Positions 12,837 through 27,736 of a stretch of 64,000 nt of DNA are shown in pieces (the first letter of the stretch is position 1; the number at the start of each line of letters is the position of its first letter). Source of the DNA: Frigoriglobus tundricola (GTDB lineage Bacteria; Planctomycetota; Planctomycetia; Gemmatales; Gemmataceae); NCBI RefSeq assembly GCF_013128195.2, contig NZ_CP053452.2:1798001-1862000 (forward strand). The letters run 5' to 3'. The notes under the pieces were generated by a model. That model was not told the DNA's origin. It did no database searches and saw only the letters and a list, made by a program, of their open reading frames with translations. The position numbers were made by a program, and so were the translations under genes.

Positions 12837-13000
12837 ATATTGACTCTTACGGCGCAATTACGACAAAGTGAATCACCAAACTTGCCGGCGCCAGCCGATT
12901 CAGTGACAACAGGGGTGACGGCTCCGCACCGACGTCGCCCCGAGCGTTTGACCGCGGTGGTGGTTATACCACTTCCGACCTCAGTACCCCGAAGCCCCGC

Positions 13001-14068
13001 ATGTCGATCACAGCACAGAACGTGACCAAGCGGTTCGGCGCCTTCGTCGCGCTCGACAACGTCACCGTCGAGTGTCCGGCCGGCGAACTCGTCGCGCTGC
13101 TCGGCCCGTCGGGGTCCGGGAAGACCACCCTGCTCCGCGTCATCGCGGGTCTCGAAGCGCCCGATAACGGCACCGTGCTGTTCCGCGACGACGACATCAC
13201 CCGCCACTCGGCCCGCGACCGCAACGTCGGCTTCGTGTTCCAGCACTACGCGCTCTTTCGCCACATGACGGTGTTCGAGAACGTGGCGTTCGGCCTGCGC
13301 GTGCGCAAGTGGCCGGAGAACAAAGTACGCGACCGGGTCAAGGAGCTGCTCCAACTCGTGCGGCTCGAAGAGAAGGCGGGGCTGTACCCGGCGAACCTGT
13401 CCGGCGGGCAGAAACAGCGTATTGCACTCATCCGCGCCCTGGCTCCCGAGCCAAAAGTGCTACTGCTGGACGAGCCGTTCGGCGCGCTCGATGCGAAGGT
13501 GCGGGCCGAACTGCGCGACTGGCTCCGCCGCTTCCACGACGCCCTCCACGTCACCAGCATCTTCGTCACCCACGACCAGGAAGAGGCGTTCGAGGTCGCG
13601 GACCGGGTGGTAGTCCTCAACAAGGGTCGCGTGGAGCAAGAGGGCACACCGATCGACGTCTTCGAGCGCCCGGCCAACGAGTTCGTGATGGACTTCCTGG
13701 GCAACGTGAACAAGCTCCCGGTCCGGGTCGTCGGCGGGCGGGCGCTGCTCGGCGAAACCGGCAGCGTGGAACTGCCGGCGAAGATGCTCGGGGCGAACGC
13801 CGATGGCCGCACCGACGCCTACATCCGGCCGCACGAGCTCGACATCGCCCGCACCGCCGACGGCGGCAACTGCTTGCTCGGCAAGATCGTTCACATCAAC
13901 CCGGCCGGCTCGGTGGTGAAGGTTCGGTTGCTCGCCGAGGACTTCGGCCTGATGATCAACGTGGACGTCACGCCCGAACGCTACCGCACCCTCGTCCTCA
14001 GACCGAACGAAATCGTTTACGTTACGCCGAAGTCCGCGCGCATCTTCGAAACGGATTACTCGATCTGA
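13001..14068 (+). CDS. cysA: ABC transporter ATP-binding protein, CysA-like
   Basis: A 355-aa ATPase of the sulfate/thiosulfate importer type. Visible motifs are Walker [10 protein letters not shown] (residues 37-45), signature LSGGQKQR (134-141), Walker [13 protein letters not shown] (about 155-166) and the H-loop [17 protein letters not shown]-terminal TOBE-like regulatory domain occupies about 235-355. It would energise import of sulfate, molybdate or a similar anion at the inner membrane. No permease or binding protein lies beside it, so either it is an orphan energising a distant permease or the substrate is different; the cysA symbol is by similarity only. Confidence 0.85.
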
Positions 14069-15777: not shown

Positions 15778-18459
15778 TTACTGAATGCTGGAAAGTTTTT
15801 CGTCGATCTTGGCCACCAGCTTCGCCGGCAGCGGGGAGTAGCGGAGGGCCTTCAAGTTCGATTGGCCGTCGTGAATGGCCCAGCGGAGGAACTTCACCAG
15901 TTCCTTCCCCTTCGGACCCGGCTGGTTCGCGTAAATGATCGCCCAGGACATCCCGACGATGGGGTACGAATCTTCGCCGGGCGGGTCGGTGAGGGTGAAG
16001 CGGAGGTCCGGCGGCACGTTCTGCAGGGCGGCGTTCGCTGCGGCCGTCACGTTCTCCAGGCTGGGCTGAACGAACTTCTCGGCGCGGTTCTTCACCTGGG
16101 CGAACCGGAGGTTCCGCTCCAGGGCGAACGACAACTCGACGTACCCGACGGCGCCTTCCTTTCGGCTGACGGCTTTCGCAACCCCGTCGTTCTTCTCCGC
16201 GTCCTCACCGGTCGGCCACGTGATGGACGTGCCCACTTTGTCCGGGCCCCAATCCAAGGGGCTGGCCTTGTTGAGAAAATCGGTCCAGATCGCGGTCGTT
16301 CCGCTCCCGTCGGACCGGCGGATGACGGTGATCGGCAGGTCCGGGAGCGTGATCCCCGGGTTGCTCGCGGTGATCGCGTCGTCGTTCCACTTCTTGATCT
16401 TGCCGAGGTAGATGTGGGCCAGCACGGCCCCAGTGAGCCGGACCTGCTCCTTAACGGTCGGGAGGTTGTACGTGACGACCACGGCGCCCAGCGCCAACGG
16501 GATGTGGACGATGTCGCCGTGCTTGTCCCGCGCCTTCTCCAGTTGCTTGTTCGACATGAACGCATCGGTGCAGCCGAAGTCGAGCACCCGGTCCACCATG
16601 TTCTCCACGCCGCGGGTCGATCCGATCCCTGAGTAGGTGATCTTGATCCCGTACTTCTCCTCGTACAGCCGGGTCCAGTAGTCCATTGCCGGCTTAATGA
16701 ACGTGGACCCGCTCCCGGTGATGACGATGTCGCTCACGGGAGCGACCTTCGGATCGACTTTCGGGTCCCCCCCGGTGCCGCCCGGGTTCGCCTTCGGATC
16801 GGCCTTCGGCTCGACCTTCGTGTCCTTCTTGCCCACCGGATCGGGTTCGGGTTTCTGAACAACCGGCGGCTTCGAGGGCGAGGTCGGGAGGGCCGGGGAA
16901 CCGGGGGTCGCGATCCACCACAGCCCGGCAATCACGACCGCGACCACCAGGCTGATCAGCACGAGCAGGAGCAACCGCGTCCCCTGCGAGGCCTTGGCGG
17001 GAGCGGCCGGTGCGGCGGCCGTTTTGCCGCCCACTACGGATTTCGGCGAGAGCCGGGCGCGCGACGCGGTCGGCGGCCCGTTGTCACCCAGGGCCGCTTT
17101 GTTGATGATGCGCGAGCGCGGCGCGGGCGGCATTTCGGGCTCGGGCTCCTCCGCCACTTCGAACTCCGGTTCGGCTTCGGGGTCCGGCTCGGGCTCCGCT
17201 TCGAGGCGCCGGGCGATGCGCGACTTCTCATTAACGGGGGCCTCCGCCGGGGCACGGTTCATCTCCCCGCTCCAGCGAATGTCCGTGACGGAGCCGGTCC
17301 CGGCCTCGGAGCCGCCCGGGCCGCTCACCAGCCCGAGCCGGTACCCGACGGGCAGAAGGCGCGGCAGCTCCGTCGCGCTCGGCGCGGGCGCCGACTGGCC
17401 CCACGGGCCGAGATCGAGGACGAGGTCGGCCGGCGACTGGTACCGGTCGGCCGGGTTCTTCGCCATCATCTTGGAGAGGATCTCGGCCAGCCGGACGGGC
17501 ACCTCCGGCCGGATGTCGCGCACCGGCACCGGTTGGCGGAACTGGTGCCCGATCAACTTCCGGGCGAGCGGCTCGGTCTCGAACGGCCCCTGCCCGGTCA
17601 ACAAGAAGTAGAGCGTGGCCCCGAGGCTGTAGAGGTCCGACCGGTGGTCCACCACCCCGGTCCGGCCGGCCTGTTCCGGCGACAGGTAGTCGGCCGTCCC
17701 GCCGGCGGCCGGGTCGTCGCGCACGGCCGGGTTCGCCTCGCGGGCGAGGTCCTGGAAGATCGTCACTAGCCCGACCTCGGCCACGTGAATGACCCCGGCG
17801 CGGTCGAGAATCAGGTTGCCCGGCTTGACGCCCTTGTGAACGACCCGCTTGCCGTGAATGTTCTGGAGAACCACCGCCGCTTGCTTGACGTAATGCACGG
17901 CCCGCTGGACCGACAGCGGCCCGGTCTGGGCCACGAGCTGCTGGAGGTTCCGACCGTCCACGTAGTCCATCACGAGGAGCGGGGAGGGCGAGGTCCGAAC
18001 CAGGTCCTGCACCCGGACCACGTTCGGGCACTCGCGGACCGCCGCGAGCCCTTCGCGCACGAGCCGCTCGAGCGCGGCGAGCCGCCCGGACCCGTCCTCC
18101 GCCTTCAGCATCTTCACGGCGGCGAGTTTGCGGTCCGGAAGGTTCTCGCACAGCAGCACGGCCCCGAGCTGCCCGGAGCCGATGAGGGCGAGCGCCTTGA
18201 ACTTCTCCGCGAGGAAGAAGCCGCGCACTTTCCCCGCGAGGAGCTGCTTCGCTTGGAACTGCGTGAGGAGCCGATCGGCAATGAGCCGGTTGGCTACCGC
18301 CTCGGCCCCCTCGTTCGCGGCCGTGCGAGCGTAGGGCTGCAGGTGCAACGACGTAAGGAGGCCGCTCCGCAGAGCGGCATCCAATAGTTGCTCGCCCGCG
18401 CTGAGTTGTGTTGACATGGGCACGCCGTTGGTGCCTGCGTGGGAGTTTTTAAGCGACAT
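15778..18459 (-). CDS. Pseudokinase-TM-PstS fusion protein
   Basis: An 893-aa two-part membrane protein. Residues of roughly 85-350 are a Ser/Thr-kinase-like domain with glycine loop GSGQLGAV (94-101), a VK116 lysine and an APE-like SPE (260-262). The catalytic aspartate is lost (HRD is H208-K-G210) and DFG is E228-V-G230, so it is predicted to be a pseudokinase. An acidic, proline-rich linker leads to one transmembrane helix (about 495-516). A phosphate-binding PstS-like domain then fills 577-893, with the phosphate-loop motif TGSGSTF and RRSDGSGTT. This orientation puts PstS outside and the kinase fold inside, suggesting a phosphate (or anion) sensor. No pst genes are nearby. The start at 18459 is uncertain; ATG 18417 is an alternative. 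Confidence 0.85.
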   Translation of the reverse strand: MSLKNSHAGTNGVPMSTQLSAGEQLLDAALRSGLLTSLHLQPYARTAANEGAEAVANRLIADRLLTQFQAKQLLAGKVRGFFLAEKFKALALIGSGQLGAVLLCENLPDRKLAAVKMLKAEDGSGRLAALERLVREGLAAVRECPNVVRVQDLVRTSPSPLLVMDYVDGRNLQQLVAQTGPLSVQRAVHYVKQAAVVLQNIHGKRVVHKGVKPGNLILDRAGVIHVAEVGLVTIFQDLAREANPAVRDDPAAGGTADYLSPEQAGRTGVVDHRSDLYSLGATLYFLLTGQGPFETEPLARKLIGHQFRQPVPVRDIRPEVPVRLAEILSKMMAKNPADRYQSPADLVLDLGPWGQSAPAPSATELPRLLPVGYRLGLVSGPGGSEAGTGSVTDIRWSGEMNRAPAEAPVNEKSRIARRLEAEPEPDPEAEPEFEVAEEPEPEMPPAPRSRIINKAALGDNGPPTASRARLSPKSVVGGKTAAAPAAPAKASQGTRLLLLVLISLVVAVVIAGLWWIATPGSPALPTSPSKPPVVQKPEPDPVGKKDTKVEPKADPKANPGGTGGDPKVDPKVAPVSDIVITGSGSTFIKPAMDYWTRLYEEKYGIKITYSGIGSTRGVENMVDRVLDFGCTDAFMSNKQLEKARDKHGDIVHIPLALGAVVVTYNLPTVKEQVRLTGAVLAHIYLGKIKKWNDDAITASNPGITLPDLPITVIRRSDGSGTTAIWTDFLNKASPLDWGPDKVGTSITWPTGEDAEKNDGVAKAVSRKEGAVGYVELSFALERNLRFAQVKNRAEKFVQPSLENVTAAANAALQNVPPDLRFTLTDPPGEDSYPIVGMSWAIIYANQPGPKGKELVKFLRWAIHDGQSNLKALRYSPLPAKLVAKIDEKLSSIQ

Positions 18460-23077: not shown

Positions 23078-24625
23078 ATGTCCGACGCCGTACGCTTGAT
23101 CCAACTTATCCGGGTAGCAGCCCCGACCGCCGGCCCCGCTCCGGCTGACACGGACCTGCTTCATCGGTACGCGACCGAGCGCGACGAGACGGCGTTCACC
23201 GAACTGGTCCGCCGCAACGGTCCGCTCGTGCTCCGCACCTGTCGCAACGTCCTCGGTGAGGCCCATGCCGATGACGCCTTCCAGGCCGTGTTCCTGCTCC
23301 TGGCGCGGTCGGCCGCACGCCTCACCTGCACCGGATCGCTGACCGGGTGGCTCCACGCCGCGGCCGTACGCATCGCCCAACGAGCGCGCCGGGGCGAGGA
23401 GCGCCGGCGGAAGCGCGAGGTGGCCCGTCGAACACCCGCGATCTCCGACGACCTGACCTGGAAAGAAGTCCGCGAGGTACTGGACGCCGAAATCGCAACT
23501 CTCCCGGAGCGCTACCGGCTGCCGCTGGTCCTGTGCTACCTCCAGGAAATGACCCGCGGGGAGGCGGCCCGACAGATCGGTTGTCCGGTCGGGGTGCTGC
23601 GCGGGCGCTTGGACCGGGGCCGCGAGCGTCTCCGGCGGCGACTGGCGCGATACGGCCTGCCTCTGGCGGCCCCGGTCCTGGCTATCGGTGCCACTCCGCC
23701 GGTGCCCGCCGCACTTGCGGCGCGCACGGTTAGGGCCGTGATGACGAGCATGGGCTCAGCCCCCTCCGCTCTCGTCGGGCTCGTGAGTACGGGCATCCCG
23801 TGGCGCATGGCGCTGTTCGTCCCTGTTTTCGCGGCTCTGGCACTCGTCCTGGCCGCAGCCGGTCAGCCGACCGGCGCCCCGCCTGCGTCCGACACGCCGG
23901 CACCCAAGGACAGAACCACCGCTACATCCGCGCCGGAGCCGGCGACCGACATCCTCGGGGACCCGCTCCCGCCGGGGGCTGTCGCTCGGCTCGGCTCGGC
24001 CCGCTTCCACCACGGCAAAAACGTGACGCGCGTGATCGTCGGCGCGGACGGGAACCTGGCGGCGTCCGAGGCCGGGTACGGGGACTACAAGCTCTGGGCC
24101 GGAGACACCGGCCGCTCAATTCCACTCTGGGACGGGCTCACGGACCTGGAACAGAGCCAGAACCGATTCGCCCTCACCTCCGCTGGAGGGCAGTTGGCTG
24201 CTGTCGTATGGAACGCAAACGGGAGCCGCCTCCTCGATCCGGTGTCGGGTAAGACCATCCGCACGCTCCCTCCGCTCAAGCTCAAAGGCCTGTCGATCGC
24301 GGAGGTGTCCCCGGACGGTAAAGTGGTAGCGGCGCTGCGATGGGAATTCACTGCTGGGCGGGTGGTATCAGCGTTCCGTATTTGGAGCGCCGAAACCGGT
24401 CTGTGGACCGACCTCGACGAGGCCGCCGGCCAACCGAGCCACCGAGCGGTTCTATTTTCAGCGGACTCGAAGCGGGTCACGTACCGCACGGTCGACGGTG
24501 CGGTGCGGGTATGGGATGTGACCTCCGCCCGGCCCCTGTTCCAACTCCCGGCGATCGGACAGCAGATTTCGGAGGAGGCGATGGCGCTCTCCCCGGACGG
24601 TAAGCTCCTAGATCACGTTGGCTGA
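23078..24625 (+). pseudogene. ECF sigma factor/WD40 fusion, 5' part (split by IS)
   Basis: The first 511 codons of a planctomycete-type ECF sigma factor fused to a propeller. Sigma region 2 occupies about residues 25-105 (DDAFQAVFLLLARSA), region 4 about 130-190 (LPERYRLPLVLCYLQEMTRGEAARQIGC). A transmembrane helix lies at 244-262, followed by WD40-like blades from about 295. This architecture resembles the ECF01-Gob class described for Gemmata. An IS630-type element enters at 24611 just after SPDGKLL, and translation ends four codons into the insertion. The sigma regions remain intact and could still be expressed as a truncated membrane protein. The 3' part continues at 25997. Confidence 0.88.
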
Positions 24626-24660
24626 ATTCGGCTGCCACCAAGGCAGAGGGTTTCCTGGTG

Positions 24661-25904
24661 TCACACGTTGAGCGGGCGGCCGGTGTACGTCCACTTGTAG
24701 GGCTTGGCTCGCGTCCGGTTGTGGTACGCGATGTACGCCAGGATCTTCTCCCGCAGGTCCGCCACCGATCGGAAGTTCCCACGGCGCACCACACGCCTCG
24801 CCAACACGCTGAACCAGATCTCCACTTGGTTCAGCCACGACGTGTGCTTGGGCACATACACGAACCGCACCCGATGACGGGGGTCCGTCAGGAACGCCTT
24901 CCGCGTCGCGACCGACTTCAGCACCCCGCTCTTCCCCTTCTGGCCCAGCGACTCGGCCGCCACCCCGCACAGCGACGCCACCCACAGCACCAACGTCGCC
25001 GAGGTGTGCGTCGTCAGGTTGTCCGCCACGAAGATCCAACCCGCCTGCGGGTCCGTCGCCACCGTTCGCTCAATGTGGGTGGCGAAGTCCTTCTCGCCCC
25101 GCGTCGCCTGAACCGTCGGGGCGATCACCTGACCCGTTGCGACCTCGAAGTTCCCGATCAAGCACTGCGTCCCATGCCGCTTGTACTCGAACTCAACTTT
25201 CTCGACCTGACCCGGCCGCATCGGCTTGGTCGGGGCGATCCGCTCCTTCGCCTGGACCCCCGTCATCTCGTCCACGCACACCGTGTGAACCCCGCTCTTC
25301 AACCCCGTTGGAGCAGCTTGGTAGCAGTCGCACACGTCCCGGACTTGTTGGGCGAATGCCTCGGGATCCTTGGGGTTCGCGTTCAGCCAATACCGACTCC
25401 GATGGGGCTGGAGTTCGGCACTTTTAAAAGGCGTCCGACGTGGCGGACGGAGATCGAGGGGACGATCCGGCGTGCCACCACTTCCTCGGCCAACGCGGTC
25501 GGGGTCCAGTGCGTCACGGGTCGGCCCGAATCCTCCGGCGGCTCACAGGCGACGGCGATGATCCGGGCGATCTGGTCGGGAGCAAAAGTCCCCGGACAAC
25601 CGGACCTGGGGTTATCACTCAGGACATCTTCGATTGCCCTCTCCAGGGTCGAGAGACCTTCGAGGCACTCGATGCGAACCAGGGTGTCGAAGGCGGCCGC
25701 CCAACGTCGTCGCCAAATCCCGACGGCGTGCCGCTCGCACCCGAGGTGGTTGGCGATCGGTCCGTTCTGCAGGCGGTCGAAGGCGAGCAAGATGATCTCG
25801 GCTCGCTGGGCCAACCCCCGCGGGCAGGAGCGAGACCGAACCCACCGTTGGAGGATCTCTTGCTGCCGCTCGGTGATGACCACCTTGGCTGCCTTCCCTG
25901 GCAT
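24661..25904 (-). CDS. IS630-type DDE transposase (needs -1 frameshift)
   Basis: Two overlapping frames form one transposase. The upstream frame (25904 down to 25383) holds the helix-turn-helix region ([19 protein letters not shown]). The downstream frame ends at 24661 and holds the catalytic domain, with D in CVDEMTG, D in FVADNLTTH and E in NQVEIWFS, plus the family motif [12 protein letters not shown]. The frames join at a U-UUA-AAA heptamer (25422-25428), after which the -1 frame reads [20 protein letters not shown] without a start of its own. The fused product would be 414 aa and catalyses cut-and-paste transposition into TA. All catalytic residues are present, so the element may still be active. 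Confidence 0.9.
25422..25428 (-). other. -1 ribosomal frameshift heptamer U UUA AAA
   Basis: On the minus strand the upstream transposase frame reads CTT-TTA-AAA here, a canonical X-XXY-YYZ slippery site. Slipping one base back changes frame precisely into the catalytic half. I did not resolve a downstream pseudoknot. Confidence 0.75.
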
Positions 25905-25963
25905 GACCGGCTCCGCTCGGGTGTCAATCTGGGATACCCCGCGAGGGTGACGAAATTCCCGTC

Positions 25964-27736
25964 GTGATGGAAGGCCAATTCAGCCAGCGTGATCTAGCGC
26001 GTGAGGATCGGAAGACGAAGAAGGTCCGACTCTGGGATGTGGACGAGGGAAAGGAGCGCCCCCAACTCGCCGACCAGCCCGAGATGCTCTGGCAATCGCT
26101 CGTATTTTCACCCGATGGTAAAACTCTCGTCGGCATGTCCCACCCGGTCACCATCCGGATCTGGGACGTGTCGACGGGTAAGAAGCTACGGGACATTCAG
26201 GCCCACGATTATCAGGTGTTCCATCTCGCCTTCACCGGCGACGGCAAGCGACTGTACGCCGCCGACGGGCACGGGGTGAGCATATGGGATCCCACAACGG
26301 GCAAACCGCTCGACGACGTCGGCGGGCACCGGTACACGATTGACGACGCGGCGTGGTCCCCGGACGGCAAGCGGCTGGCGTCCGGCGCGGGGTACACGGA
26401 CAACGTCGCTCGGGTGTGGGATCCTGCCACTGGCCGGAAGCTGTTCGACCTCGTTGGGCACAAGTCCGGGATCGAACAAGTGGCTTACAATCCGGCCGGA
26501 TCCCTGCTGGCCACCGGGAGCCAGGACGGAACGGCGCGGCTGTGGGATGCGGCGACGGGAAAGGAACTGCACGCGTTCGCGGCCAAGGACGGGATGGTCT
26601 ACGCCATGACTTTCACCCCGGATGGCCGGTTCCTGGTCACCGGTGGGCGAACTGCCTTGCACGTGTGGGACGTGGCCGGACGTAAAGAAGCGCGCTCCAT
26701 TCCCCACACGGGAGATCTCCTTCTCCAGATCGCGTTCCTACGGGACGGAAAGCGGATTCTGGTCGGAGACTACAAGAACGGTAATCGCGTCATTGATTTC
26801 GCAACAGGCCGAGAGGAGGTCCGACTGGCAGCTGCAAAGCGGCCGGGCGAGGGGGCCTTCTCCGTGGCCGTCTCCCCCGGCAACGACCGTGTGGCCCTGG
26901 CCGACCCAGACGGGACGGTGCGTCTGGTCGATGCGGGCACCGGACGAGAAGTATGCGTCTTGGCGGGGCCGGTGACAGATCACCCCGACGGCCGCAACGC
27001 GCTGGGACTGGCCTTCTCCCCGGACGGTCGGACGGTGGCCGTGGCCTACCGGCTCGGCGAGGTGCGGGTGTACGAGGTAGCAACCGGGTCGGAGCGGTTC
27101 CGCTTCGTCGGCCACACCAACGCCCCAACGGGAGTTCGATTCTCTCCGGACGGGGGCCGGCTGTGCTCGTTCGCCGGCGATCACACGCTCTTGATTTGGG
27201 ATGTGACGGGTGCCCGTCTGTCCCCGGCCCCCGCGCCGACGAGTGCGAACGCGGCCTGGGCCGATTTGCTCGCCCCGGACGCCAAGAAGGGATTCGCCGC
27301 AATCCGATACCTGGCCGCCGACCCGCCCGCAGCCGTGCGGTTCGTGACCGCCGGAGTGAAGCCGGCGGCGCCCGTGGACCCCCAAGTGGTCGCGGGATTG
27401 ATCGAGAAGCTGGGCAGCGCCGAGTTCGCAGAGCGCGAGAGAGCGTCGAAGGAACTCGCCGCGCTGGCCCCGGCCGTACCCGATCAGCTCCGCGCGGCGG
27501 TCGGAAAGTCGGACTCGCAGGAAGTACGTGCCCGTCTCGGCGCGATCGTGTCAAGGGTTAGCGAGACGAAACTCTCGGGTGAGGGCTTGCGAGCGGTCCG
27601 CGCGGTTGAGGTGCTGGAGCAGATCGGCACTCCGGACGCACAGAAGGTATTGGCCGAACTGGCCGCAGGCGCGCCCGGCTCCGCGCTCACTCAGAACGCA
27701 ACGGCAGCGCTCGGTCGATTGAAACTCAAGAAGTAG
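25964..27736 (+). pseudogene. ECF sigma/WD40 fusion, 3' part (split by IS)
   Basis: From codon GCG at 25997 this continues the gene broken at 24611: ...GKLL + AREDRKTKKVRLWDV. The frame is open leftward into the IS end, where an ATG at 25964 might give a chance start. The 579 codons encode further WD40 blades (repeated SPDG...WD motifs, for example VRLWDVDEGKE, ARLWDAATGKE and LLIWDVTGARL). A C-terminal helical domain (VAGLIEKLGSAEFAERERASKEL onward) is often seen in Gemmata WD40 proteins. Without the sigma and membrane part, this piece is probably not functional. The intact ancestor would have been 1090 aa. Confidence 0.88.

Follow-up and report, generated by a model that had tools for sequence, protein, structure and literature searches.

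A planctomycete family of kinase-PstS fusion proteins with a probable kinase-dead member in Frigoriglobus tundricola

Architecture of the fusion protein

In a 64-kb stretch of the Frigoriglobus tundricola genome (contig NZ_CP053452.2, positions 1,798,001 to 1,862,000; hereafter the window), an open reading frame (ORF) of 893 codons without internal stop or frameshift encodes a protein composed of a PknB-like kinase fold, a single hydrophobic helix and a PstS domain whose phosphate site is complete (Table 1). Here we describe this protein and its relatives, and ask what is to be made of a kinase half in which both catalytic aspartates have been replaced. The protein may start at Met15 (18417) rather than at the first ATG, judging by a match by eye to the start region of its closest orthologue.

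Both halves were recognized by domain searches with scores above the curated cut-offs: Pfam Pkinase (PF00069) at residues 89-341 with 112 bits (cut-off 31.7), Pfam PBP_like_2 at 576-862 with 126 bits (cut-off 27), and NCBIfam TIGR00975, the PstS model, at 580-892 with 325 bits (cut-off 205). An AlphaFold2 model built from a 13-row alignment has a mean predicted local distance difference test score (pLDDT) of 74 and a predicted template modelling score (pTM) of 0.43. Both halves are folded in it, and pLDDT falls below 50 at 232-254, the activation segment, and at 383-495 and 517-571. According to Foldseek, the closest solved structures to the model are PstS proteins, followed by PknB kinases; PknB is also the top solved relative of the kinase half by sequence, as it is the top kinase match by fold. 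Ahead of the kinase, the model has helices at 21-32, 37-49, 52-61 and 67-74, in a region with a consensus common to the rows of the full-length alignment.

The window protein has only one stretch with a mean Kyte-Doolittle hydropathy above 1.6, peaking at 496-514 with 3.06, and the model places a helix at 494-517, close to the single membrane helix at about 495-516 that had been proposed in an initial reading of the DNA alone (the sequence-only reading). Exactly one stretch above 1.6 is present in 18 of 19 fusions, the remaining one peaking at 1.45. Summed over the 19 fusions, Lys and Arg (K/R) number 74 in the 20 residues preceding the helix, towards the kinase, and 43 in the 20 following it, towards PstS. 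This makes it likely that the two halves lie on opposite sides of the membrane with the kinase inside, as that reading had it, although the bias differs from protein to protein. Its three-part architecture is therefore upheld by Pfam, NCBIfam, hydropathy and the model alike.

The PstS half is full-length, with the predicted TGSGSTF motif. Phosphate ligands in this half had been set in advance as a test, and all nine site residues are retained (T586, F587, S614, D632, R715, D717, S719, G720 and T721). Their counterparts in Escherichia coli PstS we take to be T10, F11, S38, D56, R135, D137, S139, G140 and T141, of which D56 and D137 are named in the titles of solved structures. Most likely, then, this half would bind phosphate outside the cell.

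Table 1. The fusion gene and its features, with positions in the window and residue numbers of the predicted protein
Feature	Residues	Positions	Strand	Remarks
Whole ORF	893 aa	15778..18459	minus	Start ATG at 18459; stop codon ends at 15778
N-terminal helical region	21-74	18238..18399	minus	Helices in model, shared consensus
Kinase-like domain	89-341	17437..18195	minus	Pfam Pkinase, PknB likeness
Asp109	109	18133..18135	minus	Aligned with PknB position 33; Leu in 20/20 fusion relatives
HKG motif	208-210	17830..17838	minus	Codons CAC AAG GGC; HRD in relatives
EVG motif	228-230	17770..17778	minus	Codons GAG GTC GGG; DLG or DFG in fusion relatives
Transmembrane helix	494-517	16909..16980	minus	Hydropathy, model, K/R counts
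PstS domain	577-892	15784..16731	minus	TIGR00975, site columns, fold

Distribution and ancestry of the fusion

The combination of kinase, membrane helix and PstS domain recurs among planctomycetes. When the 95 genomes of the window's family were searched with the PstS half, matches came from 64 of them, and 12 genomes together hold 17 kinase-fused ORFs; wider regions were taken for all PstS matches with frames of at least 700 and for some shorter ones, the remaining matches being counted as free PstS on frame length alone. One of these fusions is a second copy in the window's own genome, a paralogue of 903 residues with an intact kinase (G000:C1, about 3872471-3875179). At class level (397 genomes), two further fusions were found in another family (G228 and G254), and among 392 genomes sampled evenly from the phylum no extra fusion passed E 1e-62 among the candidates scored; since at most five candidates per genome were scored at both levels, these counts are lower bounds. 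One genome per species was also scanned with one peptide pattern; among the 80 loci kept, 11 fused ORFs came from planctomycete records such as Limnoglobus roseus, Zavarzinella formosa and an uncultured Schlesneria; these are the same genomes as in the family and class searches and provide no independent evidence. For genomes outside the phylum, the species scan is the one source of evidence; two other long PstS ORFs in it, L141 (Thermoleophilia, 801 aa) and L128 (759 aa), contain no kinase according to Pfam.

Some long frames are probably not fusions. Four PstS frames (G087, 1005; G089, 594; G032, 527; G005, 518) have no kinase match and look by eye like lipoprotein PstS with a spurious upstream extension, that of G005 running off the contig start. 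Two further loci are irregular. In G089, the kinase and PstS halves lie in two abutting frames (L056:4195-6365), apparently a frameshifted fusion, and in G023 a fusion frame of 1295 residues (L053:3583-7467) has some 445 extra residues ahead of the kinase, its start being uncertain.

The window protein shares with the other fusions both the order of the three parts and a common kinase ancestry, the support for the latter lying below the 95 mark: in the kinase tree, 22 rows including 21 fusion kinases form one group (91/89, bootstrap unsettled). The PstS tree, in turn, does not cleanly split fusion from free rows, and the fusion rows do not form one group in it. The non-fused member of the kinase group (L073:96-1619, G091) has 507 residues and stops just past the membrane helix, without a PstS half.

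The closest orthologue, from another genus (G092), is 56% identical to the window protein in the kinase half and 70% in the PstS half. It is split over two contig ends; as both frames run off the contigs and both trees place the pieces sister to the window protein (100/99), we infer that they belong to one gene. The upstream neighbour of its kinase half is FHA-like by eye, but Pfam assigned it no family. Among the candidates scored in 102 genomes of the order, at most 24 each and leaving out the long-frame kinases of G001 and G005, no kinase is closer to that of the window than G092.

Loss of the catalytic aspartates and rates of change

We compared 39 kinases residue by residue: that of the window, the G092 orthologue, 19 other fusions (one frame-broken) and 18 non-fused kinases, with the divergent kinases L075_9 and L076_3 omitted here and from the column and rate tests. 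As read from the DNA at the outset, HKG stands for HRD and EVG for DFG in the window copy, so that Gly210 replaces the catalytic and Glu228 the metal-binding aspartate, the four altered motif codons each being one or two bases away from those of the G092 orthologue. Both aspartates are present in all 38 other kinases (20/20 fusion and 18/18 non-fused), including the paralogue in the same genome and the orthologue itself. A pseudokinase lacks at least one residue of the K/D/D triad, and the window copy lacks two of the three; a pseudokinase family shares its loss among the members, and here 20/20 fusion relatives are intact, which rules out a conserved pseudokinase. For the same reason, signalling by binding instead of catalysis, which the sequence-only reading had proposed, had to be abandoned as a conserved mode of the architecture: homologues with intact HRD/DFG are what that reading had itself named as its refutation. 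That the protein belongs to the fusion family, and that the loss is specific to the lineage of the window copy, we consider highly probable.

With both catalytic aspartates gone, the window copy is not expected to phosphorylate normally and is probably a kinase-dead member. Much of the kinase half persists nonetheless: Lys116, Glu136, Asn215, Glu262, Asp275 and Arg339 are retained, as are Thr255, Gly94 and Gly96, and the glycine loop carries the substitution G97Q. In a gappy region of the alignment, the activation-loop Thr of 37/37 other kinases is Pro at residue 244 of the window protein and Asp in the G092 orthologue, hinting that change perhaps began before the aspartates were lost.

The two halves also differ in their rates of change. 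From their common node, the kinase tips measure 0.67 for the window and 0.30 for G092, and the PstS tips 0.29 and 0.20. Of 50 kinase columns conserved to at least 95% in 36 others (window, G092 and L056 excluded in picking them), ten are changed in the window and four in G092, against 0 to 4 of 50-53 in other rows, whereas of 27 conserved PstS columns (picked with window, G092 and L046_12 excluded) none is changed in either protein. Nei-Gojobori ratios of non-synonymous to synonymous substitution (dN/dS), rough at this high divergence, are 0.44 for the kinase and 0.23 for the PstS half between window and G092; in two other fusion pairs, equally rough values are 0.12 and 0.13 for the kinase, and 0.36 and 0.07 for PstS. 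These comparisons suggest that the window kinase half is under weakened or changed constraint, with the kinase fold still recognisable, and that the window copy would be a fast-evolving, lineage-specific pseudokinase attached to a normally constrained PstS half.

Proposed phosphate reception and its alternatives

What can be discerned about a role in phosphate reception from the surroundings of these genes? At an E-value of 1e-20, tblastn with PstCA, PstB, PstC and PstA found no pst transporter gene within the window, the sole match being to another ATP-binding cassette (ABC) ATPase (32-34%, about 12977-13699), and a PstS query matched only the PstS half of the fusion itself. The earlier statement that no pst or pho gene lies nearby thus holds for pst over the full 64 kb; pho genes were not searched for, and two relatives do adjoin pst genes, which supports a phosphate role. 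These emerged from the stretches fetched around 16 fusion-bearing loci (7-20 kb, and 64 kb for the window): in G016, the ends of the fusion and of a convergent pstCA are no more than about 20 bases apart, with pstS and pstB coming next, and in G008, pstS, pstC, pstA and pstB lie downstream of the fusion on its own strand, a sigma-70-like gene precedes the fusion, and pstB is truncated by the contig end and scores just below the family cut-off. The window genome encodes pstCA, pstS and pstB at other sites, along with one PhoU match above cut-off; none of 90 matches to the PhoR model exceeds its cut-off, and the PhoU and PhoR results are uninformative.

Elsewhere in the window, the ORF at 13001-14065 encodes an ABC ATPase with a TOBE domain, of sulfate type by reading of the sequence; the picked genes flanking it include neither a permease nor a binding protein. 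An ORF at 23078-24622, sigma-70-like with a weak beta-propeller at its end, is separated from a WD40 ORF (25964-27733) by two transposase-like minus-strand ORFs (DDE_3, HTH_32); 23078-27733 is possibly a single sigma-WD40 gene interrupted by an insertion element.

Our best overall explanation, in which we have moderate confidence, is a family of phosphate-receptor kinases with a catalytically defective member in the window. On balance, the family would probably consist of one-component phosphate-receptor Ser/Thr kinases. In such a receptor, the kinase would face the cytosol and PstS the periplasm, as family knowledge suggests, and the loaded or empty state of PstS would set the activity of the attached kinase, coupled to it by dimerisation or by docking of PstS on the PstCA permease. 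The long linkers of the model fit these two modes better than a rigid switch. In the window copy, phosphate binding would be kept and catalysis lost, so that it would act, if at all, via partner binding or by competition with the intact paralogue; that it still signals without catalysis is a tentative proposal about which we have more doubt than confidence.

Several observations weigh against this explanation or parts of it. Uniform phosphate sensing is challenged by the fusion rows, only 10 of 22 of which have all nine site residues; of the others, four differ only by Ser for the first Thr (Thr586), among them the intact paralogue of the window genome, a further row is partial, and the remaining seven are altered in other ways. 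Free PstS is complete in only 7 of 13 rows, and small site changes thus arise in ordinary PstS too. The G008 fusion (L046:13496-15832) has lost four of the nine site residues even though it adjoins pst genes, and pst genes occur at only 2 of the 16 loci within the fetched stretches. The long low-confidence linkers (383-495 and 517-571) and a pTM of 0.43 make a rigid transmembrane switch improbable. In the window copy, Asp109 speaks against a dimer of the PknB type, as the aligned PknB position 33 is Asp in several L33D mutant structures; this mutation presumably breaks the back-to-back dimer. Finally, Tajima tests between window and G092 gave p<0.05 with only four of seven non-independent outgroups for the kinase, and one of seven for PstS, and the clustering of changed columns in the glycine loop, catalytic loop and activation segment (7/22, against 3/28 elsewhere; p=0.084) is suggestive only. 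As an observation in its own right, the G008 protein, with intact kinase motifs and a depleted phosphate site, is the reverse of the window copy.

The strongest rival is that the kinase is a relic, the protein being a membrane-tethered phosphate binder that perhaps feeds a PstCA permease encoded at another site in the genome, with the kinase half as a decaying anchor. We regard this as a real possibility, somewhat short of an even chance. It would account for conserved columns changed in the kinase (10/50) and not in PstS (0/27), for a kinase dN/dS of 0.44 where two other pairs have 0.12 and 0.13, and for the activation-loop Thr column, in its gappy region, being lost in window and G092 alike, and pstCA and pstB are indeed present elsewhere in the genome. 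Against it stand 893 codons without stop or frameshift, 40 of 50 conserved kinase columns in place and a model that still resembles PknB folds; the kinase dN/dS, too, remains below one, although as a pair average at high divergence.

Alternatively, the window copy could still have activity as an atypical kinase or transferase, with Glu228 substituting for the metal-binding aspartate and no need for the HRD aspartate. The retention of Lys116, Glu136, Asn215, Thr255, Gly94 and Gly96 is compatible with this, and SidJ and SelO are kinase-fold proteins with other activities (PMC12599244), but the loss of both catalytic aspartates together with G97Q, in a comparison where 38/38 kinases hold both (L075_9 and L076_3 omitted), makes it quite improbable. 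The short distance of one or two bases between the altered motif codons and those of the orthologue might also suggest a sequencing or assembly error, or the two genes might have been joined by chance; divergence is, however, spread over the whole kinase half and not confined to two sites, and 17 fused ORFs in 12 family genomes disfavour chance or artefact, leaving such explanations with next to no probability.

The phosphate-receptor explanation finds partial precedents in known systems. Like the PknB/PknD-type receptor kinases, the window protein has a kinase fold, a linker, one membrane helix and an outside domain, but this domain is PstS instead of PASTA, and both catalytic aspartates are missing; PknB itself has been proposed to dimerise upon ligand binding (PMC4632501), and a non-fused parallel exists in Mycobacterium tuberculosis, where pknD and pstS2 are predicted to share an operon (PMC3322341). 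With the PstS of PstSCAB, the PstS half of the window protein shares the fold, a score above cut-off and the nine site residues; however, PstS is usually a secreted or lipid-anchored protein of its own whose gene accompanies pstCAB, whereas here it forms the end of a membrane fusion with no adjoining pst transporter genes. If our reading is right, external phosphate would be coupled to a cytosolic kinase domain as in PhoR-PhoU-PstSCAB, with the difference that the fusion carries the binding domain in the same protein. The bacterial pseudokinases MviN, EssB/YukC, ActPs1-3, GLW, CP1, DYD and DLHK likewise have a kinase fold without catalytic motifs, several being membrane-anchored (PMC12599244), but the window copy retains the ATP-site Lys and the other compared members of its group look active. 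The main text of that review contains neither 'Planctomycet' nor 'phosphate-binding', and no pseudokinase with a PstS sensor appears in the text consulted. A 2024 survey of planctomycete Ser/Thr kinases lists 307 architectures, with 'PstS' and 'PBP' not in its main text (PMC11032199), and the sole paper in the literature searched with both Pfam accessions puts them in different proteins (PMC3355149). As far as the literature searched shows, which is weak evidence of absence, the architecture has not been described.

Planctomycetes could thus have evolved one-component extracellular phosphate receptors from PstS and a PknB-type kinase, apart from PhoR-PhoU, with a kinase-dead copy that still senses phosphate and, by binding, modulates its live counterpart or competes with it, a scenario that in its entirety we consider speculative and rather unlikely. 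As the binding domain resides within the kinase protein, coupling between ligand and kinase would be testable in a single polypeptide, for which the genome of F. tundricola supplies a natural pair of an intact and a defective fusion.
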